Positions 28,100 to 50,582 of a DNA stretch of 64,000 nucleotides are shown here, one piece after another (the stretch's first letter is position 1; every line of letters begins with the position of its first letter). The notes under the pieces are model-generated. The model saw only the letters and a list, made by a program, of their open reading frames with translations, was not told where the DNA came from and did not search any database. The DNA is taken from contig CADCIH010000006.1 of the NCBI GenBank assembly GCA_902801465.1, forward strand, positions 69,917 to 133,916, in the 5' to 3' direction. The translations under genes were made by a program, and so were the position numbers. This DNA comes from an uncultured Bacteroidia bacterium (lineage in GTDB: Bacteria > Bacteroidota > Bacteroidia > Bacteroidales > F082).

Positions 28100-30464
28100 A
28101 ATCCCTGCTGTCCTTCCTGCTCTGCCTTCTCTCGTTAAGCCTCTTCTCGCAACAGTATTCTGTCAGCGGCAAAGTCACCGACAGCGAAAACCGCCAGCCA
28201 CTGGCCTTCGTCAACATCGTCGTCAACGAGGGACAATACGGCGGGATGAGCGATATCAACGGTAAATTTGAGATTCATGCCAAAGAGCCGATTCAGGTTC
28301 TGAAGTTCTCCTGTCTGGGGTATGAGACCCTGGAGAAGCAGGTTGCATCGGGACGCTTGAATGTGTCACTGGTGCCCAAGGCCTTCCAGCTGGGCGAGGT
28401 GACCGTCGAGGCAGGGGAGAACCCCGCACATCGTATCATCGACAGCGTGATGGCCCACCGTAAGGAAAACAACCCCAATTCACTCGACTCATACCGCTAC
28501 AACGTGTACGACCACATGGTGTTTACCATCGACAGCAGTGAGATCACCCGAGCCGTGGGTGCGGCCAACCGTCCCCCGACGATGGCCTATTTCGACAGCC
28601 TGCTGAAGAAAAGCGACCTAATGGTCATGGAGTCGTTCTCCGAGGTGCTCTTCCAAGCCCCCGACCTGCTTCGGCAGAACGTGCTGGGCACCCAGATGGC
28701 AGGCTCCAAGAACCCGCAGTTCGTGTATCTCGCCAGCTCCTTGCAGAGCACCAGCTTCTACGACGAGACGGTGACCATCGCAGGGACGGATTATGTCAAC
28801 CCCATCAGCCGCAACAGCAAGAGCCATTATTTCTTCAACCTCGAGTCCACGATGTCGGCAGGAGGGGCCGACTCCCTCTATGTCATCTCCTTCCATCCCA
28901 TGAGGGGCAGCACCTTCGAGGGGCTCCGAGGTACCATGACGATTCATTCCGACGGGTGGGCGCTGCTCAACGTGAAGGCAGAACCTGAAAACCAGTCGGG
29001 ACTCTTCACCATCAGCATACAGCAACTCTATCAGAAGGTCATGGGGCATTGGTTTCCCATGCAGCTGAATACCAACCTAGTGGTGCCCCAAGCCCAGGTG
29101 GAGATGGATGGCTATGCCTTCCCCATGGTGGCTGTCGGCAAGAGCTATGTCACCGACGTGGTGCTGCATCCCGACCTTCAGAGGAGCCAGTTCTCCGAGG
29201 TCGAGGTGCTGGTCAGCCGCGACGCCGCCTACCGCGACGATGAGTTCTGGACCCAGCATCGCATCGACTCGCTGACGGAACGTATCCTGAACACCTATCA
29301 TCTGATGGACTCCATCACCGAAGGCAACGACATCTTCGACCGGATGCTCAACACCACCACCAAGCTGATGAACGAGTCGGCCTTGGGCCTGGGACCCATC
29401 GACCTGAACCTTGGCAGCATGTTGCGCCTCTCCGCATTCCGAGGCCTGTACTTCGGCATCCATCTCTCGACGAACGACCGCTTGTCGAGATATTTCCGTA
29501 TCAGCGGATACAATGGCTTCTGGACCCGACTGGGTGATTTCGACTATGGCATCGGCGGCAGCTGGCTCATCGACCGTCAGCACCAGATGGAGTTGGGCGC
29601 TCGTTATGCCCACAGGTCGACGCCCATAGGCGAGTTCGGCGGATTTGGCGAAGGCGCCAGCATCCTGTCGGAAAACGAGTACCGCTTCACTTTCTATGAG
29701 AACGTGATGACCCGAGGCAACTTCACCGAAGTGTATTACAACACCCGTTTCGGACGGCATTTCAAGGCTTTCCTGACGGGCGGTGTCTACGACAGGAACT
29801 ATTACCTTGAGCCTTACGACGGCCTGCCGACCCAACGTTTTGCCACCGCCGAGCTGAAGCTGCGCTTTGCCTACAAGGAGAAGTTCGTGAGCACCACCAG
29901 TGGTATACAGTCGCTAGGCACCGACTATCCCATCGTATGGCTCGCCTACCAACATTCCTTCAGGGACGTCTTGGGAGGCCAGTTTGAATACGACCGTGTC
30001 AAGTTCCAGATGGAGAAGGACTTCCAGACGAAGTACCTCGGCAAGTCATCGGTGCTGTTACAGGCGGGCTACGCCTCCAAGGGCTGTCCGGTGCAGGAGA
30101 CCTTCAACATGTTGGGGTCGTATGAGCCTTTCGGGCTGTATTCGCCCGGCAGCTTCGCCACCATGCGCGAGAGTGAGTTCTTCTGCGACCGTTTCGCGGC
30201 GCTGTTCGTGTGGCACGACTTCCAAGGCACCCTCTGGGACCCCGGTATGATATGGTTCAAGCCACAGCTCACCCTGTCGACTTCGCTCGGATGGGGGAGG
30301 CCCACCTTGACCCAGGGCTACTTCGAGAGCGGCATCGTGGTGAAGGGACTGCTCAACATGCCCCTCGTGAACATGGGTGCCGGCGTGTTTTATCGCTATG
30401 GCGCCTATGCCCATCCGAAAGTTTTTGATAACTTTGCGTTCAAATACTCAATAACGTTCGCCCT

Positions 30465-33789: not shown

Positions 33790-35106
33790 TTATTGTTTGG
33801 AAGATGCTTGAAGCAATTCTTCAAACCTAGATGATTTAATGTATCCAATCGCTCTTTTGTTCAAATTCGTTGTGCTTAAATAGCCCATATTCACCAATTC
33901 CTGCAGGTCGGTTCTTGCTGTTCTTGTTGAAATGTTGAATTGTGTTGCCAACTCTTTTGGAGTGAATATGGTCCGCTTGCTATCGGAAATGGTTTTGAGG
34001 ACGTATCTTTGGCGTTCGTTGATGTTCAATACTCCGACGAATCTGAGGATGTTTTGCTGTTCATCGATTTTACGTTGGAGATATTTCTTCAATTCTTCGA
34101 AAGCCTTTTTCATTACATCCAAGTGATATTGGATGAAGTACGATAGGTCGTTGCCGTCACTTTCAGCGTATTGATAGGCCTTCTCGTATGCCTTTTTATT
34201 GACATAGATGATCCTGGATATGGAAAGGTATTCGGTTAACCAATAGCCTTTTTTGATCATATACCAATAAAAGAGGGATCTTGCGGTTCTTCCGTTGCCA
34301 TCTGCAAAGGGGTGGATATAAGCCAATATGAAATGGATGATAATGCCTTTAATGATGGGATGGATGAAGTTGTCGCTATCGTCGTTGTTGGCAAAATCGC
34401 ATAAATCATGAATCAGCCCATCTATTTCGGTATAGGTAGGAGGGGTGTGAGCGACGTGACCGGTGATGCCATCCACTACATAGATGTCATCGTTTTTGCG
34501 GAACACGCCCTCGTCTTCGGGGTCGTCTAGAGTTTTGCTAGTTATTGAGCGGTGAATATCGAGCAAGCTTTCTGTTGTAAAAACCTCATTTGAGTTTTTT
34601 GAGATTTTACTGATGGTCTCATAGTTGTTGACGATCATTTGCTGGCTCTTGTTTTTGGGCTTCAACTGTTTGCGAAGCATGTCTTTGGCAATCCGCCGCG
34701 TCGTTGAAGCTCCTTCCATTTGGCTGGATGCTATGGCCTCTTCCATGATGGAACTGATCAGGTAGTAGTTTTTGTCGGTGGAGGGGATGATGTTTTTGGT
34801 GCCAAGGCTTCCTCCCAAGTTCATGTCAAAATCATGAAGCAGTGCCAGCATGTATTTCGTGATGGTAAAATGAAAAGTGTGCTTGCCAAACCTAATGTTT
34901 TGGGCATTCAGTCCACGTTGAATTTTCACGGCCTGCCATAATACTTCCTTGTCGATGTCTTTAGGTCCCAGGTATTTCACTTTATCCCAATATAGATACT
35001 CGTTGCTGATTTTCTGGAACAGGGGCTGAATGTTGGGGTCATAAAGCATTAGCAAGGCATCTGCAAGCTTTTCAGGATTCAGTTTTGGAGTTGGCTCAAT
35101 CTTCAT
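33790..35106 (-). CDS. Fic/Fido AMP-transferase family protein with winged-helix C terminus
   Basis: 438 residues from ATG 35106. The Fic motif HPFADGNGRTARSLF is present, so the catalytic His and phosphate-binding loop are intact. The inhibitory motif [S/T]xxxE[G/N] is at SSQMEG in the N-terminal half (class II-like autoinhibition). The C-terminal DNA-binding-like winged helix reads FTPKELATQFNISTRTARTD. Fic proteins AMPylate targets such as gyrase or act as regulated toxins. The longer reading from 35148 is excluded by the -7 element at 35129-35136. Base composition is lower in GC than the genes to the left. Confidence 0.88.
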   Translation of the reverse strand: MKIEPTPKLNPEKLADALLMLYDPNIQPLFQKISNEYLYWDKVKYLGPKDIDKEVLWQAVKIQRGLNAQNIRFGKHTFHFTITKYMLALLHDFDMNLGGSLGTKNIIPSTDKNYYLISSIMEEAIASSQMEGASTTRRIAKDMLRKQLKPKNKSQQMIVNNYETISKISKNSNEVFTTESLLDIHRSITSKTLDDPEDEGVFRKNDDIYVVDGITGHVAHTPPTYTEIDGLIHDLCDFANNDDSDNFIHPIIKGIIIHFILAYIHPFADGNGRTARSLFYWYMIKKGYWLTEYLSISRIIYVNKKAYEKAYQYAESDGNDLSYFIQYHLDVMKKAFEELKKYLQRKIDEQQNILRFVGVLNINERQRYVLKTISDSKRTIFTPKELATQFNISTRTARTDLQELVNMGYLSTTNLNKRAIGYIKSSRFEELLQASSKQ

Positions 35107-35128
35107 TGCTTTATCTTTTTTTTCGTGG

Positions 35129-35136
35129 CAAAGATA
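35129..35136 (-). promoter_or_regulatory. -7 element of the Fic gene
   Basis: TATCTTTG on the minus strand, exact TAnnTTTG, 23 bp upstream of the ATG at 35106. Confidence 0.68.
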
Positions 35137-35146
35137 CAATATTTTC

Positions 35147-35187
35147 AAAATTAGAGGAAATTTTCCCTAAAATTCCTCTAATTTCCC
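35147..35187. repeat. 40-bp repeat, copy 2 (left of small-RNA array)
   Basis: Same orientation as copy 1 at 33746 with one or two differences; it includes the upstream edge of the Fic promoter region. Confidence 0.85.
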
Positions 35188-35238
35188 ATCTTTTTTTGTC
35201 GAGTATTGCTTTAAACTTGACTTCGTTTTTTAAAAATG

Positions 35239-35269
35239 TTGCGGAATCAAAAAAAATGTTATATCTTTG
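35239..35269 (+). promoter_or_regulatory. Promoter of small RNA A
   Basis: TTG 35239-35241 within ATGTTGCGG, spacer 20, TATCTTTG 35262-35269. The five array promoters share ATGTTGCGG, an A-rich spacer, and ATGTTGTA.CTTTGCA-like ends. Confidence 0.8.
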
Positions 35270-35275
35270 CATCAG

Positions 35276-35391
35276 TTGGTCGCGGAAACGGAAGGAAAAA
35301 CCAGTGGATTATCAAGACGTAAGGGGCGAGTTCAGGCACGTTCCCCCCGCGATAACACAGCTTAAAACCCCTCTATTCGGAGGGGTTTTTT
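35276..35391 (+). ncRNA. Small RNA A (family 1)
   Basis: About 115 nt from the predicted start near 35276 to a T-run ending at 35391. CGCGG (35281-35285) can pair with CCGCG (35347-35351), and TTATC with GATAA just inside. The terminator is CCCCTC(loop)GAGGGG followed by six T (35366-35391). No ORF with a start and ribosome site spans it. RNA B shares the blocks CAGTTGGTCGCGGA, GATTATCAAGACGTAA and GATAACA, so these are homologous RNAs. Transcription is inferred. Confidence 0.75.
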
Positions 35392-35400
35392 ATAAATATG

Positions 35401-35430
35401 TTGCGGAATCAAAAAAATGTTGTATCTTTG
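35401..35430 (+). promoter_or_regulatory. Promoter of small RNA B
   Basis: TTG 35401-35403 in ATGTTGCGG, spacer 19, TATCTTTG 35423-35430. It begins directly after terminator A. Confidence 0.8.
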
Positions 35431-35436
35431 CATCAG

Positions 35437-35550
35437 TTGGTCGCGGACACGGAAAGAAAAATGAATTGATTATCAAGACGTAAAGGGACGGCCATTTGGA
35501 TGTACCCCCCGTGATAACAAAGACTAACCCCTCGTTTGAGGGGTTTTTTT
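35437..35550 (+). ncRNA. Small RNA B (family 1)
   Basis: About 112 nt. Same blocks as A. CGCGG (35442-35446) pairs with CCGTG (35509-35513), keeping the A-type helix with one G-U pair: a change that preserves pairing. The apical part differs (GGCCATTTGGATG region). The terminator CCCCTC GTTT GAGGGG with seven T (35526-35550) is like that of A. Evidence is structural and by comparison with A. Confidence 0.75.
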
Positions 35551-35605
35551 GTTGATCGTTTTTATAAAGTTTGAAATATTAGGATAAAAGTTTTTTATAG
35601 AAATG

Positions 35606-35635
35606 TTGCGGAAACGAAAAAATGTTGTAATTTTG
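35606..35635 (+). promoter_or_regulatory. Promoter of small RNA C
   Basis: TTG 35606-35608 in ATGTTGCGG, spacer 19, TAATTTTG 35628-35635. Confidence 0.8.
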
Positions 35636-35638
35636 CAT

Positions 35639-35773
35639 TGTCTGAATTCGCCCAGGCCTCCGTATCTTGCCCAACGATTACGTGATGGCAGCTAACAGAC
35701 AGGCTGTGGCAAGCAGCCTAGCAGCAGGGGCGACTGCGAGAAAATAGAAAGGGGCTTGACGCCCCTTTTTTTT
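35639..35773 (+). ncRNA. Small RNA C (family 2)
   Basis: About 130 nt. TGTCTG (35639-35644) pairs with CAGACA (35696-35701); GGCTG (35702-35706) pairs with CAGCC (35714-35718), presenting the loop TGGCAAG. The terminator is GGGGC TTGAC GCCCC plus eight T (35751-35773). RNA E has the same arrangement with compensatory changes. The predicted 5' end may lie a few bases inside the first helix. Confidence 0.75.
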
Positions 35774-35813
35774 CTAGTATTGCTTTGAGTTTGACTCAGT
35801 TTTTATAAAAATG

Positions 35814-35843
35814 TTGCGGTGAATGATTTATGTTGTATTTTTG
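35814..35843 (+). promoter_or_regulatory. Promoter of small RNA D
   Basis: TTG 35814-35816 in ATGTTGCGG, spacer 19, TATTTTTG 35836-35843. Confidence 0.8.
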
Positions 35844-35849
35844 CAGCAA

Positions 35850-35978
35850 AAGGAAACTTCTATGGTCTAAGCACTAGTCTCGGGCAGACCGCCGAAATGG
35901 CCCGGGATGTTTAAGGAAGCGAACGGCGGTGATTCGCTGAAAACGTGTGCTGTTTTTCCCATAGAAGTTTTCTTTTTT
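35850..35978 (+). ncRNA. Small RNA D, predicted kissing-loop fold
   Basis: About 128 nt. AAACTTCTATGG (35854-35865) pairs perfectly with CCATAGAAGTTT (35959-35970), closing the whole RNA right before a T-run. Inside, AGCAC (35870-35874) pairs with GTGCT (35947-35951). Hairpin 1 is TCTCGGGC/GCCCGGGA (35878-35885/35900-35907); hairpin 2 is AGCGAA/TTCGCT (35918-35923/35933-35938). Their loops contain ACCGCCG (35888-35894) and CGGCGGT (35924-35930), exact complements. This implies a loop-loop interaction of seven pairs. No similar RNA is known to me. Confidence 0.78.
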
Positions 35979-36059
35979 CTATATCCTCTCTTCTTCTTGG
36001 TTCTGCTGTCTTTACTTCCCAGTAATCATAGCGCAGAATTAAAACTTTTAATAAAAATG

Positions 36060-36089
36060 TTGCGGAAACGGAAAAATGATGTATCTTTG
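36060..36089 (+). promoter_or_regulatory. Promoter of small RNA E
   Basis: TTG 36060-36062 in ATGTTGCGG, spacer 19, TATCTTTG 36082-36089. Confidence 0.8.
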
Positions 36090-36092
36090 CAA

Positions 36093-36197
36093 TGTCCATT
36101 TGCCAAAGCCCTCACATCTTGCTATATTGTGTGTTGGGTGGTTAACGGACAGGTCGGGCAAGCGGCTTTGGGGGCGTTGTTGGCAACCCCCTTTTTT
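36093..36197 (+). ncRNA. Small RNA E (family 2)
   Basis: About 102 nt. TGTCC (36093-36097) pairs with GGACA (36147-36151), where RNA C has TGTCT/AGACA: a C-G for U-A compensatory change. GTCG/CGGC (36153-36156/36163-36166) presents loop GGCAAG, identical to the loop core in C. The terminator (GGGGG.GTTG/CAAC.CCCC plus T-run, 36170-36197) abuts the stop codon of the convergent gene at 36196. Confidence 0.75.
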
Positions 36198-36624
36198 ATT
36201 TCTCCCAAACCAATTCCATTTTCATCAATTGTTTCAGTCTTGCCGAGTGAATCGATTTAATCAGCCAGAAGTTTTCGTTCTTGTCAAAATAAAGGTGAGC
36301 GGCAGCTATGTGACTTGTTTCGTCGGTCTTTACAGCTAAAACTAGAGATTTTGGTCTGTTTCCCAAACGTATTTGGTTGTAGTTTTTGGCAATATATTCA
36401 GCATAGCTTTCTTTTGTGATTCCTAGTGCATCGAGGGTATGTTTGATAGAGTTAAGATGGTTTTCGTTGTGCTTTAAAACGTTTGAAGGATTGGCTCGTA
36501 TTGTATTAGCATTGTCTGGTATTTCAAAATACTCACTTATTTTTATGATTGCCGATTTGGGGATAACACCAATTTTTCGGTATTGTTTTTCGAGCTTGAC
36601 TCTATTTTTGCTTTGCTTCGACAT
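36196..36624 (-). CDS. Unknown protein, possible nuclease-toxin-like domain
   Basis: 142 residues (MSKQSKNRVKLEKQYRKIGV start). The C-terminal half NRPKSLVLAVKTDETSHIAA with FDKNENFWLIKSIHSAR has the alternating pattern of small RNase-toxin-like domains (PBECR/barnase-EndoU-like), but this is a weak resemblance. No signal or membrane segment. It has its own promoter and converges on small RNA E, whose terminator it shares. Low GC. No antitoxin-like neighbour except, conceivably, the RNAs. Confidence 0.7.
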   Translation of the reverse strand: MSKQSKNRVKLEKQYRKIGVIPKSAIIKISEYFEIPDNANTIRANPSNVLKHNENHLNSIKHTLDALGITKESYAEYIAKNYNQIRLGNRPKSLVLAVKTDETSHIAAAHLYFDKNENFWLIKSIHSARLKQLMKMELVWEK

Positions 36625-36654
36625 GGTTGATTCCTTGTTTTAGAGTTTTGTTTG

Positions 36655-36662
36655 CAAAGATA
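36655..36662 (-). promoter_or_regulatory. -7 element of the 36196-36624 gene
   Basis: TATCTTTG on the minus strand, exact TAnnTTTG, about 31 bp before the ATG at 36624. Confidence 0.65.
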
Positions 36663-36745
36663 ATGTTATTTATTCAAAAACGTGATAATTGTTTAATATT
36701 ACTAATTAATTTAATTTACACCCTGAGAAAGATTGTGAAAAAGTG

Positions 36746-37102: not shown

Positions 37103-37969
37103 ATGGGCGATGCTGAAAATAGGAAATATACCTTCTCTGGCCACGAAACCTTCCACTGCAAAGGCTTGTGGCTGAAAAAAGGATATGATTTTGTCAAGGA
37201 AGGCCATTCGTTCAACGATGAAGATGCTGTAGTCGTTTTGGGTGTTGGTAAGAACATGGTCAGTTCCATCAGGTATTGGCTTCGTGCTTTTGGCTTGATT
37301 AACCAAAACAATGAAATATCGCCGTTGGCGGATTTCATTTTTGATACAGAAACAGGTTGCGACCCATTTGTCGAAGACACCCAAACACTTTGGCTGCTGC
37401 ATTGGAATCTGATATATACCAACTACGCATCCATTTATAGGCAAGTGTTTCTCCACTTCCATAAAGAGCGAAAGGATTTCTCCAAAGCAAATATCTTTGC
37501 TTTTTTGAAGCGCAAGTATCTTGACAAGACATTTAGTGGTTTGGTTTGGAACGACAACACTATCAACAAGGATATTGCCATGTTGATTAAGATGTATGTT
37601 TCACCTGACACAAACATCTACGAGGATTATTCCTCTATCCTTTTGGATTTGAACCTTATTAAACGAATCGAGAAGGAAGTGTATGAGTTTAACTATCCAA
37701 CAAAAGCGAAAATCAATCCGTTGATTTTCTTCTACGCTATTCATAAAGTCTCAAATGGCAGTCAGGTGGTTGAATTTGACAAGCTGCTTGAACTGAGCCT
37801 GGTATTTTGCTTGTCGCAAAACGAACTGTACGACATTTTCAACCAACTGACAGCCATAAATTCCAACATAACATTCGACAATTCGGCTGGTGAACAATTG
37901 TTTGCTGTCAAGCAAGATTTCAACGAATTTGAAATCTTAAACATGTACTATAATCCGAAAGAAAGATGA
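37103..37969 (+). CDS. DUF4007-family protein of Dnd-like defence operon
   Basis: 288 residues. The N-terminal signature SGHETFHCKGLWLKKGYDF followed by VVLGVGKNMVSSIRYWLRAF is characteristic of DUF4007. No membrane segment. The family occurs beside PAPS-reductase-like and helicase genes of sulfur-based DNA modification or BREX-like islands; its biochemical role is not established to my knowledge. It is first in a seven-gene run with 4-bp overlaps. No TAnnTTTG promoter is obvious in the 54 bp before it, so transcription may come through RNA F. Confidence 0.85.
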   Translation: MGDAENRKYTFSGHETFHCKGLWLKKGYDFVKEGHSFNDEDAVVVLGVGKNMVSSIRYWLRAFGLINQNNEISPLADFIFDTETGCDPFVEDTQTLWLLHWNLIYTNYASIYRQVFLHFHKERKDFSKANIFAFLKRKYLDKTFSGLVWNDNTINKDIAMLIKMYVSPDTNIYEDYSSILLDLNLIKRIEKEVYEFNYPTKAKINPLIFFYAIHKVSNGSQVVEFDKLLELSLVFCLSQNELYDIFNQLTAINSNITFDNSAGEQLFAVKQDFNEFEILNMYYNPKER

Positions 37970-40900
37970 AGTATTCAACATCAGTAAATATAGAGCGTGA
38001 CAGCGACAAGGCATTCAACTATATTGTAACCGCCAACGCCAAACAAGCCATCGGCAAAATAGTTGACTTTTACACAGCCGGGATACATTCTTTCTGTCTG
38101 ATCGGCTCTTACGGCACAGGCAAATCAAGTTTCTTGTTGGCATTGGAGCAATGTTTAAGCGCAAAACAGCCAACCGTAAATCAGTTAATCAAGAACAAAG
38201 GACAATTCCACGGATTCACTAAGTTCCGTTTTGTGAATATCGTTGGCGATTACCAGCCGCTGATTGAATTACTCCAAGCCCATATTGAAACGACAACGAG
38301 CAAGAAAAACAATGTCTTCGCTGCAATAGATAAGTTGTATAACGATTGTCAAAAAGACAATTCCTTTTTGGTTTTTGTGATTGACGAGTTTGGTAAAGTG
38401 CTCGAACACGCCGCCAAAAACAACCCTGAAAAGGAAATGTATTTCTTGCAGAAATTCTGCGAATATGTAAATGACACTAGTAAGAACATCCTTTTGCTAA
38501 CCACTCTGCATCAAGGTTTCAACGCCTACGCAAAAGACTTGAAACTTGAACAAAAACAGGAGTGGACTAAGGTAAAGGGCAGAATACAAGACATTGTTTT
38601 CAAAGAGCCGATTGAGCAGTTGCTTAATCTTGCTGCCACCAAAATTGCTGCGAAACGAGAAGCGACAAATAACACTGCGATACACCAGCTCTACGATTTA
38701 GCCCTCAAATCAAAGTTTGCCAACGACAATCTAAAACCCGATGTCGTCTCTGCGTTATATCCAATGGATATCTTTGCCGCCTATACTCTAACGCAAGCCA
38801 ACCAACGTTACGGACAAAACGAGAGAACCCTATTCTCTTTTTTAGAAGCCACTGGCGAAGATTCCATTGCCCAATTCTCCGCATCAGAGAATACACTTTA
38901 CAACCTGGTTAATGTGTACGACTATGTCCAATACAATTTCCATTCGTCACTGTCCGAAGTAAACTCCGATTCAACAAATTGGTCGGCAATCAAAATTGCC
39001 ATTGAACGTGTTGAAGGACTACCGTTGGAAGGGACTGAAATAGAAAAGGCAATCGGTCTTGTCAAGGTAATCGGTTTGCTCAACATATTTGCTTCTTCAT
39101 CAGCAAGAATCGATTCAGATTTTCTTGCCCAATATGCCCGCTTATCTATGGGCATCAATGATATCGAGCCTTTGATGGGCAAACTGGAGAAATCTCAAAT
39201 AATCCGTTTCGCTAAATACAAGTCAAAGTATATTCTTTTTGAGGGTACTGATGTAGACATTGAGATGGGGCTTTACAATGCTTCGTTGGAGTGCAAACGC
39301 ACCGACGATTACATTGACAAGTTGAAGCGTTTGTTCACGTTCCGCATTTCCATTGCTAATGCCCATTACTATCGCACAGGAACACCGCGTTATTTTGAAT
39401 ATCAGATAACCGACACACCCATCACAAAAATGCATCAGGGCGAAATCGATGGAATAATTGATTTGATTTTCGCCAAAGTCAATGACTATTCAGTTATAAC
39501 AAACGATTGTTTGTCGCAAAAAGGCATTGCCGTTACCTATTGCATCTTCAAAAACGCACAAGAGATTATCGACCATATTTTTGAAATCGACAAATTGGAA
39601 TGGGTGCGTAAATACTACATCGAAGATGAGAATGACAAGGTGGCCAATAATGAAATTGAGAACCTTATTGAATACGAAAAATCGCTTCTGAACAGATGCG
39701 TTACAGACAGCCTCTTCTCTGATGATGTCCAGTGGGTTTTCAACGGTGAGTGTGTTGACAGCATACACTCTCAAAAAGATTTGATGAAATTCTTGTCCAT
39801 CATTTCAGATACGATCTACAGTGCTACACCTGTATTCAAAAACGAGTTAATCAACAAGCACCGCCCAAGTGGTACCATGTCGGTTGCCCGACAAAACTAT
39901 TTGAACGCCTTGCTCGAAAACCGAGACAAAGAAGATATTGGATTTAGCAAAGAAAAGTACCCGCCAGAGAAATCCATCTATCTCACTATGTTGAAAAGCA
40001 CTGGCATCCACTCATCCGAAAACGACTCTTTCGGTTTCAGCGAGCCAACCGAGCCGTCTTTTTTGCCGTTGTGGGAATGCTGTATGGACTTTTTGAAATC
40101 CGCACAACAAAAGCGGCGCAAAATTGGCGAACTTGCCAGCATCTTGTCTGAACCACCTTATGGAATCAAACAAGGTTTTATTGAATGTTGGTTGCCGTCA
40201 TTCTTAATCATCAAAAAAGATGATTTCGCTCTTTATAGCGGCGATGCCTATATTCCGTCAATCAACAAAGAAGTATTGGATTTGCTGTATCGCAATCCCA
40301 ATAGTTTATCAGTTAAGTCATTCTGCGTTGAGGGCATCAAACAAGAGTTTTTTGACAAATACCGCGAGGCTGTCAATCTTAAAAAGACCGACCTCAACGG
40401 CAACTCATTTATTGAAACCATACGCCCATTCCTGACATTCTACAAGCGTTTGAACACTTATGCCCAAACCACCAAAGATATTTCTTCCGAAGCGAAGAAA
40501 TTCCGTGATGTCATTGCACGAGCCACCGACCCAGAAGCAACTTTCTTTGAGCAATTGCCCGAGGCTTTAGGCTTCAGAGAAGTTGTCTTGACTCAAAATC
40601 CAGAGGCCATCGAGAGTTTTGTAACCGTTCTGCATAATGCCATAAGGAATCTGAGAAGTTGCTATGAAGAGTATGTCAAATCCATTGAGCAGCACATTCT
40701 CAAGGATTTGAAAATCAAAGAAACGGATTATCTTTCTTACAAGCCGATTATCGACAAGCGGTATGAATCCGTCAAAACAGCTTTGATGCCCAACGATGTC
40801 AAGAATTTCCATTCTCGTCTGACTGGAAACTACGACAATCGTACTACGTGGATAGAATCTGTCTGCTACGCCGTGTTGAACAAACCGCTTGAAAAGATAA

Positions 40901-41175
40901 AAGACGCTGAAAAAGCGTTCTTGCTGACATCGTTGCAAGACAAACTATTCCAACTTGACGATTATGTTGAGATGCACAAGACAGACAGTGAATCGATTGT
41001 CAGGCTGCATATCACACAAAACAAAGAGGGAGCAATAACCAAACAGGTTGTTGTACCACAAGAGAGCTTGCAAGAAGTCAGTCTGCTGGAAAAGAAATTG
41101 GAAGATTTACTTTCCAAGGATAATACCGTCAATGTGGCGGCACTCATAAACCTGATTAAAAAGAAACTACAATGA
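37966..41175 (+). CDS. Large P-loop ATPase of Dnd-like operon
   Basis: 1069 residues. Walker A GSYGTGKSSFLLALE near residue 45, Walker B-like VFVIDEFGKVLEHAA near residue 145, and a long, mostly helical remainder. It resembles the large ATPases of DptF/PglY/BrxC type that accompany DNA modification systems, but homology to a named one cannot be asserted by eye. It is likely the motor or regulator of the restriction part. Overlaps both neighbours by 4 bp. Confidence 0.82.
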   Translation: MKYSTSVNIERDSDKAFNYIVTANAKQAIGKIVDFYTAGIHSFCLIGSYGTGKSSFLLALEQCLSAKQPTVNQLIKNKGQFHGFTKFRFVNIVGDYQPLIELLQAHIETTTSKKNNVFAAIDKLYNDCQKDNSFLVFVIDEFGKVLEHAAKNNPEKEMYFLQKFCEYVNDTSKNILLLTTLHQGFNAYAKDLKLEQKQEWTKVKGRIQDIVFKEPIEQLLNLAATKIAAKREATNNTAIHQLYDLALKSKFANDNLKPDVVSALYPMDIFAAYTLTQANQRYGQNERTLFSFLEATGEDSIAQFSASENTLYNLVNVYDYVQYNFHSSLSEVNSDSTNWSAIKIAIERVEGLPLEGTEIEKAIGLVKVIGLLNIFASSSARIDSDFLAQYARLSMGINDIEPLMGKLEKSQIIRFAKYKSKYILFEGTDVDIEMGLYNASLECKRTDDYIDKLKRLFTFRISIANAHYYRTGTPRYFEYQITDTPITKMHQGEIDGIIDLIFAKVNDYSVITNDCLSQKGIAVTYCIFKNAQEIIDHIFEIDKLEWVRKYYIEDENDKVANNEIENLIEYEKSLLNRCVTDSLFSDDVQWVFNGECVDSIHSQKDLMKFLSIISDTIYSATPVFKNELINKHRPSGTMSVARQNYLNALLENRDKEDIGFSKEKYPPEKSIYLTMLKSTGIHSSENDSFGFSEPTEPSFLPLWECCMDFLKSAQQKRRKIGELASILSEPPYGIKQGFIECWLPSFLIIKKDDFALYSGDAYIPSINKEVLDLLYRNPNSLSVKSFCVEGIKQEFFDKYREAVNLKKTDLNGNSFIETIRPFLTFYKRLNTYAQTTKDISSEAKKFRDVIARATDPEATFFEQLPEALGFREVVLTQNPEAIESFVTVLHNAIRNLRSCYEEYVKSIEQHILKDLKIKETDYLSYKPIIDKRYESVKTALMPNDVKNFHSRLTGNYDNRTTWIESVCYAVLNKPLEKIKDAEKAFLLTSLQDKLFQLDDYVEMHKTDSESIVRLHITQNKEGAITKQVVVPQESLQEVSLLEKKLEDLLSKDNTVNVAALINLIKKKLQ

Positions 41176-42278
41176 ATCAAGTCAGACATGTATTAGGCAT
41201 ATCAGGAGGTAAGGATAGTGCGGCATTGGCTATTTATTTAAAAGACAAATATCCAACGCTCGACATCGATTTCTACACTTGCGACACCAAGTGCGAATTG
41301 GCTGAAACAGAGCAACTCGTTGAGCGTTTGCGTTCTTATTTGGGTAAGATAACCACACTTCAAGCTGCCAAAGACAGCCCTGAACCCACGCCATTTGACC
41401 ATTTTTTGAAAATCAGCGGGGGCTTCCTCCCTTCTGTTCAACAACGCTGGTGTACTCAAAAAATGAAATTGGCTGAATTTGAGAAATACGTTGGCGACGA
41501 CATGGCAGTTTCATACGTCGGTATTCGTGGCGATGAAGACCGCGACGGTTACGTTTCAACCAAGCCGAACATCCAAGCCATATATCCGTTCAGGAAGAAC
41601 ATTTGGAGTTTGGACGTGATAAACAAAGTGCTAAACAACGCGAGCATCGAAAAATTCAACGACTGTTATTCTTCCGTTGCCACCGAAGACATCTATGACC
41701 AGGCAAAGCAATTCATCAACACTCCATTGACGAAGGATTTCTACTACTCCAAAAAACTAAATGCTATGCTTGATGTCGACATTAAGACATTCAACCATGC
41801 CGTTTTTGCTTTCCTCAAAGCATACACGGATTATCCTGTTGGCAAGTTGGATTCTTTTCCTTTACTGGACAACGAAGATGTACTTTGCAAAGAGGATATT
41901 TTCAGGATATTGGAAGAAAGTGGCGTTGGCGTTCCGGCATACTACAACCTCATTGATTTCGAGGTCGACGGAAAGATTGGGCAATACTGCCGCAGCCGCT
42001 CGGGATGTTACTTCTGTTTCTTCCAACAGAAGATCGAATGGATTTGGCTTTACGAACAACACCCTGACCTTTTCAAAAAAGCGATGGAATACGAGAAAGA
42101 CGGCTACACGTGGATTCAAGGCGAACCGCTTGAAAAGCTGATTCGTCCTGAACGAGTACGCCAAATCAAACTCGACCACATAAAGAAGACAGAGGACTTG
42201 AAAGCAAAGAGCAAAAACAAGCTGCTGATAGACCTTTTCGAAGATGATGATATTAACTGCGCTAATTGTTTTATATAG
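41172..42278 (+). CDS. DndC-like PAPS-reductase-family ATP pyrophosphatase
   Basis: 368 residues. PP-loop SGGKDSAALAIY near residue 10, adenylating nucleotide-binding fold. Cysteines RWCTQK, RSGCYFCFF and the C-terminal CANC could hold an iron-sulfur cluster as in DndC, which transfers sulfur to the DNA backbone with DndD and DndE. The typical IscS-like desulfurase (DndA) and DndB are not in the window; a chromosomal desulfurase could serve. Placement beside a DndD-like gene supports a sulfur-modification role. Confidence 0.86.
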   Translation: MNQVRHVLGISGGKDSAALAIYLKDKYPTLDIDFYTCDTKCELAETEQLVERLRSYLGKITTLQAAKDSPEPTPFDHFLKISGGFLPSVQQRWCTQKMKLAEFEKYVGDDMAVSYVGIRGDEDRDGYVSTKPNIQAIYPFRKNIWSLDVINKVLNNASIEKFNDCYSSVATEDIYDQAKQFINTPLTKDFYYSKKLNAMLDVDIKTFNHAVFAFLKAYTDYPVGKLDSFPLLDNEDVLCKEDIFRILEESGVGVPAYYNLIDFEVDGKIGQYCRSRSGCYFCFFQQKIEWIWLYEQHPDLFKKAMEYEKDGYTWIQGEPLEKLIRPERVRQIKLDHIKKTEDLKAKSKNKLLIDLFEDDDINCANCFI

Positions 42279-44591
42279 ATGCTAAAAGAAGTAACATTTC
42301 CAGCACATCGCCGATTCAAATCGCGCACCGAGTGGGAGCCTGTAGGCTTCTTCTCTGAGTGCTTGTGTAATTCAATGCAGTTTGATTTGATGTTGGGGTT
42401 CTTCTCCTCGTCAGCAATCAATGTACTGGCAGACGGCTTTGCTTCGTTTCTCTATAACGGTGGACGGATGAGATTAGTAATAAATGACATCTTAACCGAA
42501 CAAGATAAAGCCGCTTTTGCCAATGGCACACAGGATAATTTACCTTTCTTCGACCTGTCCGACCTCGAAAAATTGAAGTCCACTCTCTCAGAACGAGACA
42601 CGCATTTCTTTGAATGCCTCTCATGGCTTATCAAAAATGATAGACTTGAAGTAAAGATTGTAGCACCAAAAGAAGGCATTGGCATTTCTCACACAAAAAC
42701 AGGTGTTTTTGGTGACGGAGTAGATTATGTTGCTTTTGATGGCTCATGCAATTTCTCTCGTTCAGCCTTGATTGACAATATTGAAAGCCTTACGGTATCG
42801 TGTGAATGGGACGGCAATATAGAGGCTGAAAAAGCCAAAGACATAAAGGAAGACTTTGAGACGGTCTTCAATGGAAAAGACGAAACGATTGTCTATAAGA
42901 CAACCGAACAAGTTAGAACGAAACTTGTAGAAGGTTTCAAAGACAAGTCCTTAACGTCATTGCTGGAGGATGAATACAAGCTTATTGACCAGCACGCCAA
43001 AAAGAAAGAGTTACCCTCTACCGTAAAGCGCGCATTGGAAAAAGCAAAACAAAGAGTCTCTGAGGCAATCAGTAAAACAAAGGAGAAAAAAACGGCTGAG
43101 AACCTGTCGATAGATACTATTTATGAATCTGAACCGAGTTTCCCCTACGCATCAGGCCCAAGAGATTATCAACAACAAGCCTTTGAAAATTGGAAAAGCA
43201 ACAACCAAAGAGGTCTTTTTGCCATGGCAACAGGCACAGGCAAAACCATTACATCATTGAATTGTCTGCTGGAAATTTACAAGCGGAATGGTTATTATAA
43301 GGCTATTATCTTGGTACCCACAATTACACTGGTTAATCAATGGGAAAAAGAATGCGAGAAGTTCCATTTTTCTAACATCATCAAGGTCTATTCAAAAAAC
43401 GCAGAATGGCGTTCAAGGATTGAACACCTTCAAATGGCCGAGGAGTATAAAAAAGCAAAAGAGCCAACGCAAAACTTCATCATCATTTCTACTTATGCTT
43501 CATTCACAAGAAACAATGTCTTTGACATTCTCAACGGATTTGAGAAATCCAAGGTGTTGTTAATTGCAGACGAGGCTCACAATATGGGGTCGCCGACGAT
43601 TATGAAACGCATAGGTGACATCAAGTATTTGCGCCGTATTGGACTGTCAGCAACTCCAGAACGGCAATTTGACGATGAGACCAACAAGAAACTATTCAAG
43701 TTTTTCGGGGCTGAGAAACAATATACATACGAGTATTCGATGGAAGAAGCTATCGAAAATGGTGTGCTTTGTCGTTACTTCTACTATCCTCACCTTGTTA
43801 GATTGACAGATGATGAATTTGATAAATATGTAGAATTGTCACTGAAAATCTCCAAGTATTTTAATTACAACACCAACTCATTTGACAAGAAAGATGATAT
43901 ACTGATGAGTATGTTGTTGGCTCGTAAGCGTATCATCCATAAAGCCGCCAACAAATTGAACATATTTAACAGGATTATCACTGAGCGATACAATAAGAAC
44001 GGCAACTTGAAGTATTCACTTGTTTATGTTCCTGAAGGAACTAAACCAGATTACATTGCTGATTCTGATGTTTTCGACAGCTCCGACCAAGTATCTGACG
44101 ATGACGTTGCTGACCGTTTGATTGATGATTATACTGAGGCGGTAACAAAATTGGATAAGTTTATCACGGTCAAGAAATTTGTCTCAGGTCAGAAAGACAG
44201 GGACAAAGTACTGAATGATTTTGCTTCAGGTAAACTGCAAGTGCTGACTTCCATGAAATGTCTTGATGAAGGTGTAGATGTTCCAAGAAGCGAATTGGCC
44301 ATCTTTTGTGCAAGCACAGGCAACCCGCGACAATTCATCCAACGTAGAGGTCGTATCTTGCGAAAACACCCAGACAAATTCATGGCCGAAATTCACGACC
44401 TCGTTGTCGCTCCCGAAGTAAATCCAGGTTCTGATAGTTTCAGAATGGAACGAGCCTTATTAAAAGGAGAGCTTGTTCGCGTAAAAAACTTCTCGTTGCT
44501 TTCGGAGAATCCTTCGTTCTCTCAAATGGAACTGAAATCCGTCATGCAGCATTATGGTTTGAATTTATATAATAACGATCATATAGTATGA
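42279..44591 (+). CDS. Helicase with N-terminal phospholipase D-like nuclease domain
   Basis: 770 residues. N-terminal PLD-like half: ISHTKTGVFGDGVDYVAFDG followed by SCNFSRSAL (one HxK motif seen). Then an SF2 helicase: GTGKTITSLNC (I), LIADEAHNMGS (II, DEAH), LSATPERQFDD (III), and QRRGRILRKHPDK (VI). The order nuclease plus helicase resembles restriction components that act on DNA lacking the modification. It begins one base after the previous stop codon. Confidence 0.86.
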   Translation: MLKEVTFPAHRRFKSRTEWEPVGFFSECLCNSMQFDLMLGFFSSSAINVLADGFASFLYNGGRMRLVINDILTEQDKAAFANGTQDNLPFFDLSDLEKLKSTLSERDTHFFECLSWLIKNDRLEVKIVAPKEGIGISHTKTGVFGDGVDYVAFDGSCNFSRSALIDNIESLTVSCEWDGNIEAEKAKDIKEDFETVFNGKDETIVYKTTEQVRTKLVEGFKDKSLTSLLEDEYKLIDQHAKKKELPSTVKRALEKAKQRVSEAISKTKEKKTAENLSIDTIYESEPSFPYASGPRDYQQQAFENWKSNNQRGLFAMATGTGKTITSLNCLLEIYKRNGYYKAIILVPTITLVNQWEKECEKFHFSNIIKVYSKNAEWRSRIEHLQMAEEYKKAKEPTQNFIIISTYASFTRNNVFDILNGFEKSKVLLIADEAHNMGSPTIMKRIGDIKYLRRIGLSATPERQFDDETNKKLFKFFGAEKQYTYEYSMEEAIENGVLCRYFYYPHLVRLTDDEFDKYVELSLKISKYFNYNTNSFDKKDDILMSMLLARKRIIHKAANKLNIFNRIITERYNKNGNLKYSLVYVPEGTKPDYIADSDVFDSSDQVSDDDVADRLIDDYTEAVTKLDKFITVKKFVSGQKDRDKVLNDFASGKLQVLTSMKCLDEGVDVPRSELAIFCASTGNPRQFIQRRGRILRKHPDKFMAEIHDLVVAPEVNPGSDSFRMERALLKGELVRVKNFSLLSENPSFSQMELKSVMQHYGLNLYNNDHIV

Positions 44592-44827
44592 CACAGAAAG
44601 ACAAAATGTTACAAATGGTCTTAGATGACCCCAAACTACAGGACTTCTACGAATACACCCGTAAAGACTATGACGAGGGTGTTTATGAAGCGATTAACTC
44701 TAGCAACGCAATCGTTGCATCCGTTGCTAAAATCATCGTTGAGCTCAACGGCTCTGATGACCCCAGCGAGCAAAAGCGTGTGTATCAAACTATTTTTAAG
44801 TATTTAAATGACAGGTTGTTAGCATGA
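44588..44827 (+). CDS. Small helical protein of the Dnd-like operon
   Basis: 79 residues, helical and mildly acidic (KDKMLQMVLDDPKLQDFYEY start; SEQKRVYQTIFKYLNDRLLA end). Overlaps both neighbours by 4 bp, so it is translated with them. No recognised domain; perhaps an adaptor for the SMC-type ATPase that follows. Confidence 0.75.
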   Translation: MTQKDKMLQMVLDDPKLQDFYEYTRKDYDEGVYEAINSSNAIVASVAKIIVELNGSDDPSEQKRVYQTIFKYLNDRLLA

Positions 44828-46983
44828 TTATCAAGAATATAACTATAGAGAATTTCAGGAGTTATTATAAAGAAAACTCCATTGATGTCGGCAATGGTTT
44901 GACACTAATAATAGGTTCAAACGGTGACGGAAAAACAACCATGTTCGAAGCTGTCGAATGGCTATTTGATACGGTTGGGACTTTACCCAAAGCCGACAAT
45001 AAATACATCTCCAAAAAGAGAATCTCTGAATTGATGGATTCCGAATCCGATCATGTCAGAGTTTCCATGACTTATGTCAATGAAGGTGGCGAAAGACTAA
45101 TCCAAAAATCTTTCAAATTCACGAAAAGCCTGAGCGGTGAAATCTCCACTTCCAATTTCTCATACGACTTGTATATACAGCAAGGAGTAGAAAAAGATGT
45201 AAAAAGTGGTGAGGCCGCTACTAGACAATTTGACAGGGATTTCGCGCCATCCATTAGAAAGTATTGCTTATTCAAGGGCGAACAGAACTTGAACATCTTC
45301 AACAATGACGATGCTATGAGTTATCTCGTTGAGACTTTTAGTCAGATTCGGGATTTTGACCCTTATTTGTCTTTCATGGAAAACGCAAAAATGTGGGCAG
45401 AAAAAGCAACTGACAATGCCATAAGAGCTGACAGAAAAAACTCAAGTGAAGCCCAACGCTTGCGTGGTTTAATCACTTATGAAGAAAGGCAAATTGGCGA
45501 ATTGGAGACTGAGCTTCAAAACAAAAGAAACGAAGCCATCAATTTTCAAACCTTATTGGAGGAAATCGAAAAGAACAAAGAAACATCAAGTCTTTTAGTT
45601 GATACCAACTCAAGACTTGAAAGCCTTATAGCACAAAAACTACAAGCGCAAAAAGAGCTTAATGAGAATTACACCTTCCGCTTGTTAGATGATATGTGGA
45701 TTCTCATGGGCTATGAACCAATCGCGGAAGAATACAGAGATTTCGTCGGTAAGCTTGACAAGGAACAAAGAAAACAACAAAGCAAATACGACCAAGAGAT
45801 AGGTGCTAAAAAGATTGTAGCACAAATCAATAGAGATTTAAGCCATGGTCACGTACCTCTTGCAATAAACATTCCCGACGAAAACACTATGCGGGAAATG
45901 ATAGATGAGGAATTTTGTAAAGTTTGTGGCCGCCCAGCACCTAAAGGTTCAGAACCATATCTCTTTATGAAAAAGCGTCTTGAAGATTACTTGGCTTCAT
46001 TGGAAACCGAAGTAGAAAAAGAAGAGAAAGTCGAACCGCTTTTCAAATACTCTTATATCAAGGAGCTTTGTGATAGATATTCCGTCCTTCACAACAACAT
46101 GAAGTTCCTTAATAGATTAAACGGCTTTATTGATAATGCCATTAGGGAGAATTTGAAAAAACACGAAACCATCGACAGGCTGTCTTCGAACATAGAACAA
46201 GAAGAGGAGAAGAAAAAACAAATTCTTGCCCAAACAGATGGACTTTCAGAAGACGAACTCGTTTCTGCGTATAACAACATTTCGGAATGGTGGAAGGCAA
46301 GATCTGATGCAGAACGTCGTTCTGATTTCTTGGAGGCACAAATCAAGAAGCACAAAGACACTTTGGAAGACTATCGTTCACAGTTTTCGAAGATTTCGGA
46401 AGATTCTTCTGCTGCAATGTATAGTAGAACAAGCCAAGCAATCAGGAGAATCCTTGATTCATTTGTATCAGCGAAGAAAAAGAACAAAAGAGATTTCTTG
46501 GATCAACTTGAAGAAGTCACCAATGAATATCTTGAATTATTGAACAAGGGTGATTTCAGAGGTTATGCGCAAATCGTTGAAAAACCCAATTCAAGTGCTG
46601 AGATTATTTTGATAGACACTGACGGCTCACGCATATACAATGCTAATACTGCCTTGAAGACTACGATGTACATGTCATTACTGTTTGCGGTAGCAAAACT
46701 GACAACTGTCAAGCATGAAAACGATTATCCTTTAATCTTCGATGCTCCTACATCATCGTTTACAGCAGCAAAGGAAAGTGACTTTTTCGGTGTGATTGCC
46801 GGAATTAACAAACAGACAATAATTGTCACGAAGAGTTTCCTCATCGAAGACTCCGAGGGCAATTCAACTTTAGATAGTGTGCGTTTAGAGGAGATTGACG
46901 CAAAGAAATACCGTATTGATAAGGCACGTCCTTTTGATGAAAAAGACTTGTCGACCATCCAAACTTATGTTGAACCCATTTAA
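44824..46983 (+). CDS. DndD-like SMC/Rad50-type ATPase
   Basis: 719 residues. N-terminal Walker A GSNGDGKTTMFEAVEWLF (residue ~30), long coiled coils, a zinc-hook-like CKVCGRP near the middle, and a C-terminal Walker B region DYPLIFDAPTSSF. This is the organisation of DndD, which is required for DNA phosphorothioation with DndC. The zinc-hook cysteines would allow dimerisation. It overlaps the small gene by 4 bp; the next gene follows after 11 bp. Confidence 0.87.
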   Translation: MIIKNITIENFRSYYKENSIDVGNGLTLIIGSNGDGKTTMFEAVEWLFDTVGTLPKADNKYISKKRISELMDSESDHVRVSMTYVNEGGERLIQKSFKFTKSLSGEISTSNFSYDLYIQQGVEKDVKSGEAATRQFDRDFAPSIRKYCLFKGEQNLNIFNNDDAMSYLVETFSQIRDFDPYLSFMENAKMWAEKATDNAIRADRKNSSEAQRLRGLITYEERQIGELETELQNKRNEAINFQTLLEEIEKNKETSSLLVDTNSRLESLIAQKLQAQKELNENYTFRLLDDMWILMGYEPIAEEYRDFVGKLDKEQRKQQSKYDQEIGAKKIVAQINRDLSHGHVPLAINIPDENTMREMIDEEFCKVCGRPAPKGSEPYLFMKKRLEDYLASLETEVEKEEKVEPLFKYSYIKELCDRYSVLHNNMKFLNRLNGFIDNAIRENLKKHETIDRLSSNIEQEEEKKKQILAQTDGLSEDELVSAYNNISEWWKARSDAERRSDFLEAQIKKHKDTLEDYRSQFSKISEDSSAAMYSRTSQAIRRILDSFVSAKKKNKRDFLDQLEEVTNEYLELLNKGDFRGYAQIVEKPNSSAEIILIDTDGSRIYNANTALKTTMYMSLLFAVAKLTTVKHENDYPLIFDAPTSSFTAAKESDFFGVIAGINKQTIIVTKSFLIEDSEGNSTLDSVRLEEIDAKKYRIDKARPFDEKDLSTIQTYVEPI

Positions 46984-48952: not shown

Positions 48953-48982
48953 TTGCAAGTAGAAAAAAAGTTTGTATTTTTG
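48953..48982 (+). promoter_or_regulatory. Promoter of small RNA G
   Basis: TTG 48953-48955, spacer 19, TATTTTTG 48975-48982. The flanking CGAAAAACCCTTGC is shared almost exactly with promoter H. Confidence 0.8.
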
Positions 48983-48987
48983 CAATG

Positions 48988-49084
48988 TCAGAAATGACTA
49001 ATCCGGTATTTTCCGAGTGGGGGTAAGCCCTTATCGACCCTGCCCCATATTATAAAAGAGCCATCGTTAAGGTGGCTTTTTTAT
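48988..49084 (+). ncRNA. Small RNA G
   Basis: About 97 nt. GTCA-GAAA-TGAC near the start, CGG/CCG around 49002-49016, TGGGG/CCCCA spanning 49019-49047, and a terminator AGCCA/TGGCT with T8 (49059-49084). It converges on the minus-strand gene at 49081, as E converges on the 36196 gene. No ORF. The sequence is not evidently related to A-E, only the promoter type differs. Confidence 0.68.
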
Positions 49085-49629
49085 TTCATGTATTTCTGCC
49101 TGAACATAAACAGGTAGAGGGCATTCTCGGTGAAACGACGTGAAACGGAGATCGTTTTCTTTCCCTTGTAAATTAATACTTCGACAGCTGATGGGTTGGC
49201 ATCAAAATATTTTTTTATTTGGATGGACATTAGTCTGGGGTTATAATCAGTACTAACATTTATAAGCACACGGTTAGTCTGATTGGTTGATTCCATGAGT
49301 CTGTTGTCAAGTGATGCTTTCCCTGAAATCGTTTTTAAATCATACATCTTATAGACACCTTTGTTCTCAAAAATAAAGTCAGCGGTTTTTGTTCCCTTAG
49401 GATTTGGAAGGATGAAAACTTTATTGCCGTGTGTGACAGCTTTCCGAGCGGCATCAAGAAGGGATGGCCAATCATCACGATGGCTGGCTTCTGCGGCAAA
49501 CATGTTTTTCTCCCCATCAACAGGTTTGAATATATTTAGATGGGTCAGCAATTTCAACTGACGGACAAATTCAGCGCCTCTAATGACGTGTAGTTTTGCC
49601 AATTCTTGTGAGATGTCGTATTCTGGCAT
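49081..49629 (-). CDS. Unknown protein with PD-(D/E)XK-like C terminus (toxin-like?)
   Basis: 182 residues (MPEYDISQELAKLHVIRGAE start). The segment KTADFIFENKGVYKMYDLKT has the D...E/D-x-K spacing of PD-(D/E)XK nucleases and of CdiA-type tRNase toxin domains, followed by VLINVSTDYNPRLM and VEVLIYKGKKT. This is a pattern-level similarity only. No signal peptide. Its own promoter is at 49722-49729. No immunity gene is evident next to it, which makes an orphan toxin remnant or another role possible. Confidence 0.68.
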   Translation of the reverse strand: MPEYDISQELAKLHVIRGAEFVRQLKLLTHLNIFKPVDGEKNMFAAEASHRDDWPSLLDAARKAVTHGNKVFILPNPKGTKTADFIFENKGVYKMYDLKTISGKASLDNRLMESTNQTNRVLINVSTDYNPRLMSIQIKKYFDANPSAVEVLIYKGKKTISVSRRFTENALYLFMFRQKYMK

Positions 49630-50220: not shown

Positions 50221-50558
50221 CAAAACTTTCCTTGCAAGATAATATCCAAATGATGCCTCAACCACTCGTTATTTACCTTATCGCCATCAACGTCATGGGA
50301 ATGGCTCTGTATGGACTGGATAAGGCCTTCTCGAAACAGAAAGGCCACCGTCGTATCCCGGAAAGGGTGTTGCTGTGGCTCGCCCGACTGGGCGGAGGAG
50401 TGGGCTGCTGGATAGGAATGCTTCTCTTCCGACACAAGACCAAACATATCCGATTCAAAGTGCTGGTCCCGCTGTGGACCGTGATCTGGATCGCTTTGAT
50501 TTTTATGTCGCAAAACGAACAATTATTCACTTTTTTTCGAAAAACCCTTGCGAGTTGA
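50217..50558 (+). CDS. DUF1294 membrane protein
   Basis: 113 residues from ATG 50217, overlapping the previous stop. The family pattern: LVIYLIAINVMGMALYGLDK helix, KGHRRIPERVLLWLARLGGG, CWIGMLLFRHKTKH, then VPLWTVIWIALIFM. Four-helix small inner-membrane protein of unknown function. Its 3' end overlaps the promoter of small RNA H. Confidence 0.85.
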   Translation: MTKLSLQDNIQMMPQPLVIYLIAINVMGMALYGLDKAFSKQKGHRRIPERVLLWLARLGGGVGCWIGMLLFRHKTKHIRFKVLVPLWTVIWIALIFMSQNEQLFTFFRKTLAS

Positions 50559-50577
50559 AAAAAAGTTTGTATTTTTG
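50548..50577 (+). promoter_or_regulatory. Promoter of small RNA H
   Basis: TTG 50548-50550, spacer 19, TATTTTTG 50570-50577. The surrounding 48 bp match promoter G with about three differences. Confidence 0.8.
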
Positions 50578-50582
50578 CAGCA

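Follow-up and report, generated by a model that had tools for sequence, protein, structure and literature searches.

What five small RNA units in a row are for is the question raised by the DNA examined here, a 64,000-nucleotide stretch (the window) of contig CADCIH010000006.1 in assembly GCA_902801465.1 of an uncultured Bacteroidia bacterium of the gut. An earlier note on this sequence had described five tandem promoter-RNA-terminator units and had proposed a defence-like role for them. The five units are indeed present at 35231-36205 on the forward strand, with RNAs of roughly 105-140 nt each. On the best reading of the sequence data, they encode RNA antitoxins that would neutralise RNase toxins in a type III-like way, though toxin family and layout differ. 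We consider it likely that each such RNA blocks one small RNase-type toxin encoded tail-to-tail with it. A role of the array RNAs in a conflict system is thus likely, as the note had suggested, though without the tie to a DNA-modification operon that it had drawn.

According to nhmmer and alignment, the units belong to three RNA families. Family AB comprises unit A (35231..35395; promoter 35239-35269, RNA from about 35271, terminator at about 35365-35390) and unit B (35391..35555; promoter 35401-35430, RNA from about 35432, terminator at about 35524-35552). Family CE comprises unit C (35594..35775; promoter 35606-35635, RNA from about 35637, terminator at about 35746-35773) and unit E (36049..36205; promoter 36060-36089, RNA from about 36091, terminator at about 36168-36198). 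Unit D (35803..35985; promoter 35814-35843, RNA from about 35845) represents family D and has a kissing loop and a long outer helix that leads into a T-run. Sequence comparison bore out the homology of A with B and of C with E that had been noticed before. As also described, all five promoters consist of TTG and TAnnTTTG separated by 19-20 nt, and ATGTTGCGG is common to them (repeat family D3, 5 copies). The pattern TTGC-N17/19-TAnnTTTGC has ten matches in the window, compared to an expectation from shuffles of 0.12 per whole window. Five of them are the array promoters (35239, 35401, 35606, 35814 and 36060), and the same promoter also precedes the tRNA at 10240 and occurs at 48953 and 50548. 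The promoter is therefore of a general type, and the private regulon that had been assumed was rejected. The intrinsic terminator ascribed to each unit was found in four: a terminator-like hairpin with a T-run lies downstream of A, B and C, and the terminator hairpin of E was read both in the fold and in the sequence. Unit D lacks a separate terminator and ends with the 3' strand of its 18-bp outer helix and a T-run. Single-sequence folding z-scores were modest (A -2.9, B -1.8, C -2.1, D -4.0, E -1.5); covariation across relatives is the stronger structural evidence, less so for AB. A 45-nt repeat (80%) lies upstream of units A and D (35192-35236 and 35766-35810) and is perhaps a trace of array assembly.

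The distribution of the three families was determined in 99 genomes of the same genus, own genome included, on which the RNA models R1-R3 and the protein profiles were run. The models found 65 copies of the AB RNA in 41 genomes, 23 copies of the CE RNA in 18 and 13 copies of the D RNA in 11, patchily and scattered over many unrelated genomic places. The RNA families of the array are thus kept in related genomes. Elsewhere in the own genome, AB occurs a third time on contig C2 and D a second time on contig C8; unit D, previously called unique, also has copies in 10 of the 98 other genomes. None of the array RNAs matches an Rfam family at gathering score (best sub-threshold E 0.51), as a check proposed in the note showed, and the array DNA has no match among phage or plasmid records. 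In a class-wide search of 295 genomes, again including the own genome, PF18812, R1 (AB) and R2 (CE) were run, D and the further families F, G and K introduced below being left out. PF18812 was found in two genomes, R1 in the own genome only, and R2 in the own genome and one other; the latter match (E 2e-4) lies inside a 505-aa ORF and was dismissed. AB and CE therefore seem restricted to this genus, with the caveat that search filters are stricter on sets as large as these 295 genomes.

In a survey of the flanks of 69 RNA copies, from the window and 60 loci of same-genus genomes, clustering revealed a small ORF on the opposite strand behind the RNA: cluster c0 (28 members) behind AB RNAs, and cluster c1 (15 members) behind CE and D RNAs. 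The ORF that the earlier note had taken merely as the border of the array is a member of c1. It lies at 36196..36624 on the reverse strand, convergent with unit E, and encodes a nuclease-like protein of 142 aa, a probable BECR-type RNase toxin. Upstream of it, a TAnnTTTG box read from the sequence (36655..36662, reverse strand), with no matching TTG at the usual distance, suggests that the gene has its own promoter.

To quantify the pairing, gene matches of 85 bits or more were counted as strong, which gave 46 c0, 13 CE-type and 14 D-type genes in the 99 genomes; eight of the c0 matches contain a stop, and one match is a 70-codon fragment. A convergent cognate RNA within 1.5 kb was found for 45 of the 46 c0 genes (AB RNA), the lone exception being the 70-codon fragment, for all 13 CE-type genes (CE RNA) and for 9 of the 14 D-type genes (D RNA). 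All 67 strong gene-RNA pairs were convergent. Among the five D-type genes without a D RNA, four face RNAs of another family, G (L105-L108, almost identical copies). For the fifth (L090) there is a candidate convergent RNA, which is longer (about 28150-28390 of G021:C4) and faces a 136-aa D-like gene. Sixteen weaker c0-like matches had no convergent AB RNA; 10 were examined, and all 10 face a convergent RNA of yet another family, F. RNAs of the CE and D families were never seen within 300 bp of a c0 gene, nor an AB RNA beside a CE- or D-type gene. One CE-type gene had a D RNA within 300 bp; judged by its location, this is the window's own.

The c0 proteins matched PBECR3 (PF18812) above the Pfam cut-off in all three cases scanned. 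PBECR3 is described as a predicted BECR-fold RNase domain (PMC5512222). Three of three D-type proteins fell below the cut-off (E 0.005-0.016), which one F-partner (L095) passed and one G-partner failed. CE-type and D-type proteins are homologous (hhalign 96.8%, E 2.3e-10). Two histidines of the CE-type protein, H52 and H56, are conserved. An AlphaFold2 model of the 36196-36624 protein (pLDDT 84.8, pTM 0.80) had weak Foldseek matches to HigB, RelE, YoeB, PfiT and a CDI toxin among unrelated folds in the best 50 listed, and ToxN, AbiQ and CptN were not among these 50. We regard the CE-type protein as a probable BECR RNase. A conserved protein antitoxin gene, as in type II systems, is absent from the c0 and c1 loci: no conserved protein partner was found beside these genes, the commonest neighbour cluster within 1.5 kb occurring at 6 of 28 c0 loci (one shared chromosomal place) and 3 of 15 c1 loci.

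These observations are consistent with a mechanism in which a short structured RNA, transcribed from its own promoter, would bind and block one particular RNase-type toxin. The partner proteins would be toxic RNases, the RNA would target the protein rather than its mRNA, and loss of the RNA would free the toxin.

In favour of the antitoxin reading, RNAs frequently stand alone, whereas a gene hardly ever lacks its RNA: 24 of 101 RNAs had no gene, even with weak gene matches within 1.5 kb counted, versus 1 of 68 genes without RNA (Fisher p 3e-5; strong genes, the five D-type genes without D RNA left out). The orphan RNA count is somewhat too high, as two of the AB RNAs are located at contig ends and that of L058 precedes a c2-type unit and a c2 gene (see below). 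As a group, AB RNAs without a gene show no decay: 11 of the 15 reach at least 89 bits, and the group median is 91.0, versus 98.9 for the 50 with a gene match. The retention of gene-less RNAs suggests a use for them. It also bears on an unlikely alternative, namely that the RNA serves the nuclease as cofactor, guide, decoy or activating substrate and the pair forms a single RNA-protein defence effector. One RNA family per protein family, the strong sequence conservation within the array-family RNAs and the defence genes near the array would fit this as well; a cofactor, however, would be useless without its enzyme, and both the orphan RNAs and the mostly gene-less array speak against it.

Within the array, only unit E has its gene. 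Unit D is overlapped in its 3' part by a remnant, the last 43 codons of a D-type partner gene (35914..36042, reverse strand; 39/43 identical to the L075 gene by tblastn, E 3e-26). Two c0 queries found no c0 pieces in 35001-36700, so units A and B are without a partner gene, and that of unit C is absent too. The array would thus be a row of mostly toxin-less antitoxins. Multi-copy loci were found at 3 of the 60 flank loci (two, two and three copies), none with five. The simplest history is that toxin genes were lost from neighbouring modules and the RNAs left in a row. On contig C2 of the same genome, an AB RNA is accompanied by an open c0 gene, and on contig C8 a D RNA by an open D-type gene. 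The array could therefore provide further antitoxin in trans or protect against toxins of these kinds that come in from outside.

We then considered the position and fold of the RNAs relative to the genes. The gap between RNA and gene is mostly 13-30 bp. Modelled AB and CE RNAs end 13-48 bp (one 81 bp) before the matched gene stretch, one AB RNA overlaps it by 10 bp, and D RNAs overlap the gene end by 32-53 bp. The CE fold (20 distinct sequences) had 97% of cells paired and 10 pairs with double-sided changes, a number reached in 0 of 500 shuffles. Its pseudoknot CTTGC/GCAAG (helix 99% paired) changes compensatorily to CTCGC/GCGAG in L133 and L134. The D fold (11 sequences) was 98% paired, with nine double-change pairs (0/500 shuffles), and its kissing helix CCGCCG/CGGCGG was 96.9% paired and contains one of the nine. 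In family F (8 distinct sequences, aligned without L098 and L099, which are copies of L097), the outer helix was 100% paired; three double-change pairs were reached by 37 of 500 shuffles and the covariation score by none of 500. The AB fold (39 distinct sequences; 42 of 44 copies used) was 98% paired and rests mainly on a largely invariant 10-pair helix. Covariation thus supports a pseudoknot in CE and a kissing loop in D; for AB, no pseudoknot was established.

The convergent layout and the D overlaps would also suit a type I-like control by an antisense RNA that base-pairs with the 3' end of the partner mRNA. AB and CE RNAs, which apart from the one AB case stop short of the gene, are not antisense to the toxin mRNA as this would require, and the conserved covarying helices lie outside any overlap. 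We therefore regard antisense control as very unlikely.

Highly improbable, in our view, is that the RNAs are ordinary regulatory small RNAs or ends of mobile cassettes (attC-like DNA) with the genes as passengers, although the modules are patchy and scattered through the genus. The TAnnTTTG box stands directly before the RNA start in 85 of 89 copies from five families and the full promoter before 57, compared to 0.6% of random 75-nt stretches; a T-run follows 84 of the 89. Moreover, a different RNA goes with each protein family, and selection on the partner genes is purifying (median pN/pS 0.31 for 17 c0, 0.33 for 8 CE-type and 0.16 for 6 D-type genes, with synonymous sites near saturation).

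An accessory role of the array in the adjacent Ssp/Pbe DNA-modification system, as suggested by its position 0.9 kb before sspB and by the earlier idea of a private array of co-regulated RNAs linked to the DUF4007 (SspB) operon, is scarcely credible and was rejected: by tblastn, SspB, SspC, SspD, PbeA and the PbeC-like protein had no match at the RNA loci examined except stretches of the window's own place, though the RNAs occur in 41, 18 and 11 of the 99 genomes at many unrelated places and behind a general promoter.

Several results weigh against RNA antitoxins of RNase toxins. Neither of two CE-type proteins scanned had a Pfam match, the Foldseek search with the CE-type model gave nothing at E<=0.001 and an unrelated first match, and hhalign produced no alignment of c0 with CE-type or D-type proteins. 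AB covariation is thin, its two double-change pairs being reached by 307 of 500 shuffles, and the pair-type measure was not above shuffles in CE, D, F or AB. The correlation of RNA distances with c0 protein distances (Mantel r 0.77, 25 pairs) speaks for the antitoxin reading, but linkage alone could produce it. Finally, RNA family K (see below) consists of three sequences.

The antitoxin reading places these pairs closest to the type III toxin-antitoxin systems ToxIN, CptIN and TenpIN. As described in PMC5086642, there too the small toxin is of RNase type and its partner a small, structured RNA with a pseudoknot, and separate RNA families go with separate toxin families. Compared to that description, the toxin here is of the PBECR3/BECR type instead of the ToxN (MazF/Kid-like) fold; RNA and gene are convergent, whereas there they form one operon with the RNA upstream and a terminator between; and AB, CE and D are single RNA units, also found in gene-less arrays, instead of tandem nucleotide repeats. 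Because toxin family and layout differ, we do not file the array RNAs as type III. Candidate ToxI-like RNAs of human microbiomes were likewise recognised by comparative genomics as structured RNAs beside an RNase toxin, but are reported upstream of ToxN in Clostridiales and Leptotrichia (PMC8040213); overlap with the present families is possible. PBECR and LPD3 domains were described in phage polyvalent proteins (PMC5512222), and c0 proteins match the former; here the genes are small, solo and chromosomal and face an RNA, while that account of solo phage forms mentions no RNA partner. The open-access literature, to which our search was confined (subscription papers and preprints lay outside its scope), yielded, among the titles and abstract openings listed, no description of such convergent RNA-toxin pairs, and nothing that joins RNA antitoxin, polymorphic toxin and immunity protein. 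According to PMC5086642, the known RNA antitoxins that act on a protein toxin go with three related families of toxin, all with the same operon arrangement. For other nuclease families, an RNA antidote seems to have evolved repeatedly, here with RNA and gene convergent. Annotation would have missed these pairs because the RNAs and most of the proteins are unnamed. Solo PBECR proteins, predicted to be RNases in 2017, thereby gain a likely partner, and toxin-less antitoxins in a row would offer a simple form of inherited protection.

A further pair lies in the window itself. The family K unit (48953..49090, forward strand; promoter 48953-48983, structured RNA, terminator; z -3.98) is convergent with a gene for a 182-aa CdiA_C-type nuclease (49081..49629, reverse strand; PF18451, E 7.2e-6, 26.5 bits compared to a cut-off of 26.6). 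In two IMG/VR contigs, L144 and L145, a relative of this nuclease (85/175 and 84/175 identical) forms the C-terminal domain of a MuF-like head protein (PF04233) that adjoins a Mu-like portal. Each has a convergent RNA that shares the core GTGGGGGT..TTATCG..GCCCCAT with the K RNA of the window; no third viral contig has this core pattern. By blastn, the two stretches are alike only from the toxin domain through the RNA (647 bp, 79%), apart from one 32-bp match, and the head-protein part before the toxin domain is identical at 73 of 267 positions. Since toxin domain and RNA are alike while the preceding part has diverged, they appear, in these two phages, to have moved as one unit. MuF polymorphic toxins of temperate phages carry such C-terminal toxin domains too, but the immunity partners described for them are proteins (PMC5576092, PMC12226406), whereas here the partner is a convergent RNA exchanged together with the toxin domain. 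This suggests that RNA may replace immunity proteins for phage MuF toxins.

Genes of the c2 group are followed by units of a TAnnTTTG box and a hairpin in the opposite direction, and 3 of 7 c2 proteins scanned resemble LPD3 below the cut-off. At L071, two similar hairpin units stand in a row. L089:7240-7520 holds three different ones behind one promoter, facing a c2 gene. AB RNAs at L054:7284 and L058:5123 are followed by a c2-type unit, either complete or just its beginning, with no terminator in between. Rfam gave two tRNAs and nothing else at six c2 loci, no match for the L089 units, and an unrelated SAM-II in L105 as the sole match at 18 loci of the other RNA families.

Taken together, we tentatively propose, as a possibility short of an even chance, a general class of RNA-neutralised nuclease toxins. 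Six or more unrelated families of RNA would belong to it (AB, F, CE, D, G, K and c2-type units), each tail-to-tail with its own toxin group (two PBECR3 groups, CE-, D- and G-type, CdiA_C and LPD3-like c2), in chromosomes of the genus and in Mu-like phages, where the RNA would give immunity to capsid-borne MuF toxins. The array of the window would then be a multi-specific bank of antitoxin RNAs against incoming toxins.

Relatives of the partner genes were also sought elsewhere. Plasmid records contain none of the window's CE-type gene, phage records none of the one c0 protein searched, and IMG/VR none of CE-type or D-type. IMG/VR holds nine PBECR3 relatives of 31-41% identity. A motif behind six of these nine genes, first taken as an RNA, was dropped since, translated by hand in frame with the gene, it gives a conserved peptide. 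Eleven of the 12 named relatives that the CE-type gene has come from uncultured Bacteroidales or Bacteroidia, and some of the names refer to yak reticulum, red deer or RUG (rumen). The twelfth, a 3.8-kb contig labelled Bacillales (L130), carries a partial CE-type gene 97% identical to the window's over 74 residues, and the label is probably a binning error.

Longer frames with a D-type domain make up 7 of 37 profile matches, and six were examined. In L148, L149, L150 and L152, a full promoter points into the end of the D-domain gene, and the sequence beyond is coding. L153, a 4043-aa frame that runs to the end of the stretch, has no TAnnTTTG box in the 60 antisense bases examined. L151 is a frame that runs through CRISPR-like repeats; these (L151:1-700, about 48 nt each) contain a TATCTTTG box.

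Around the array, the Ssp-type operon at 37103-46983 encodes SspB, SspC, SspD and PbeA according to PADLOC, followed by an SMC-like ATPase that matches LmuB/PbeC weakly and by a 200-aa ORF that falls in no family. A short promoter-hairpin-T-run unit of about 63 nt lies at 50548-50640 (z -3.2) and has copies in L104. On the other side of the array, a Fic/DOC protein with an HTH is encoded at 33790-35148 (SoFic in PADLOC), and a 48% identical Fic protein occurs near an orphan D RNA at L040.
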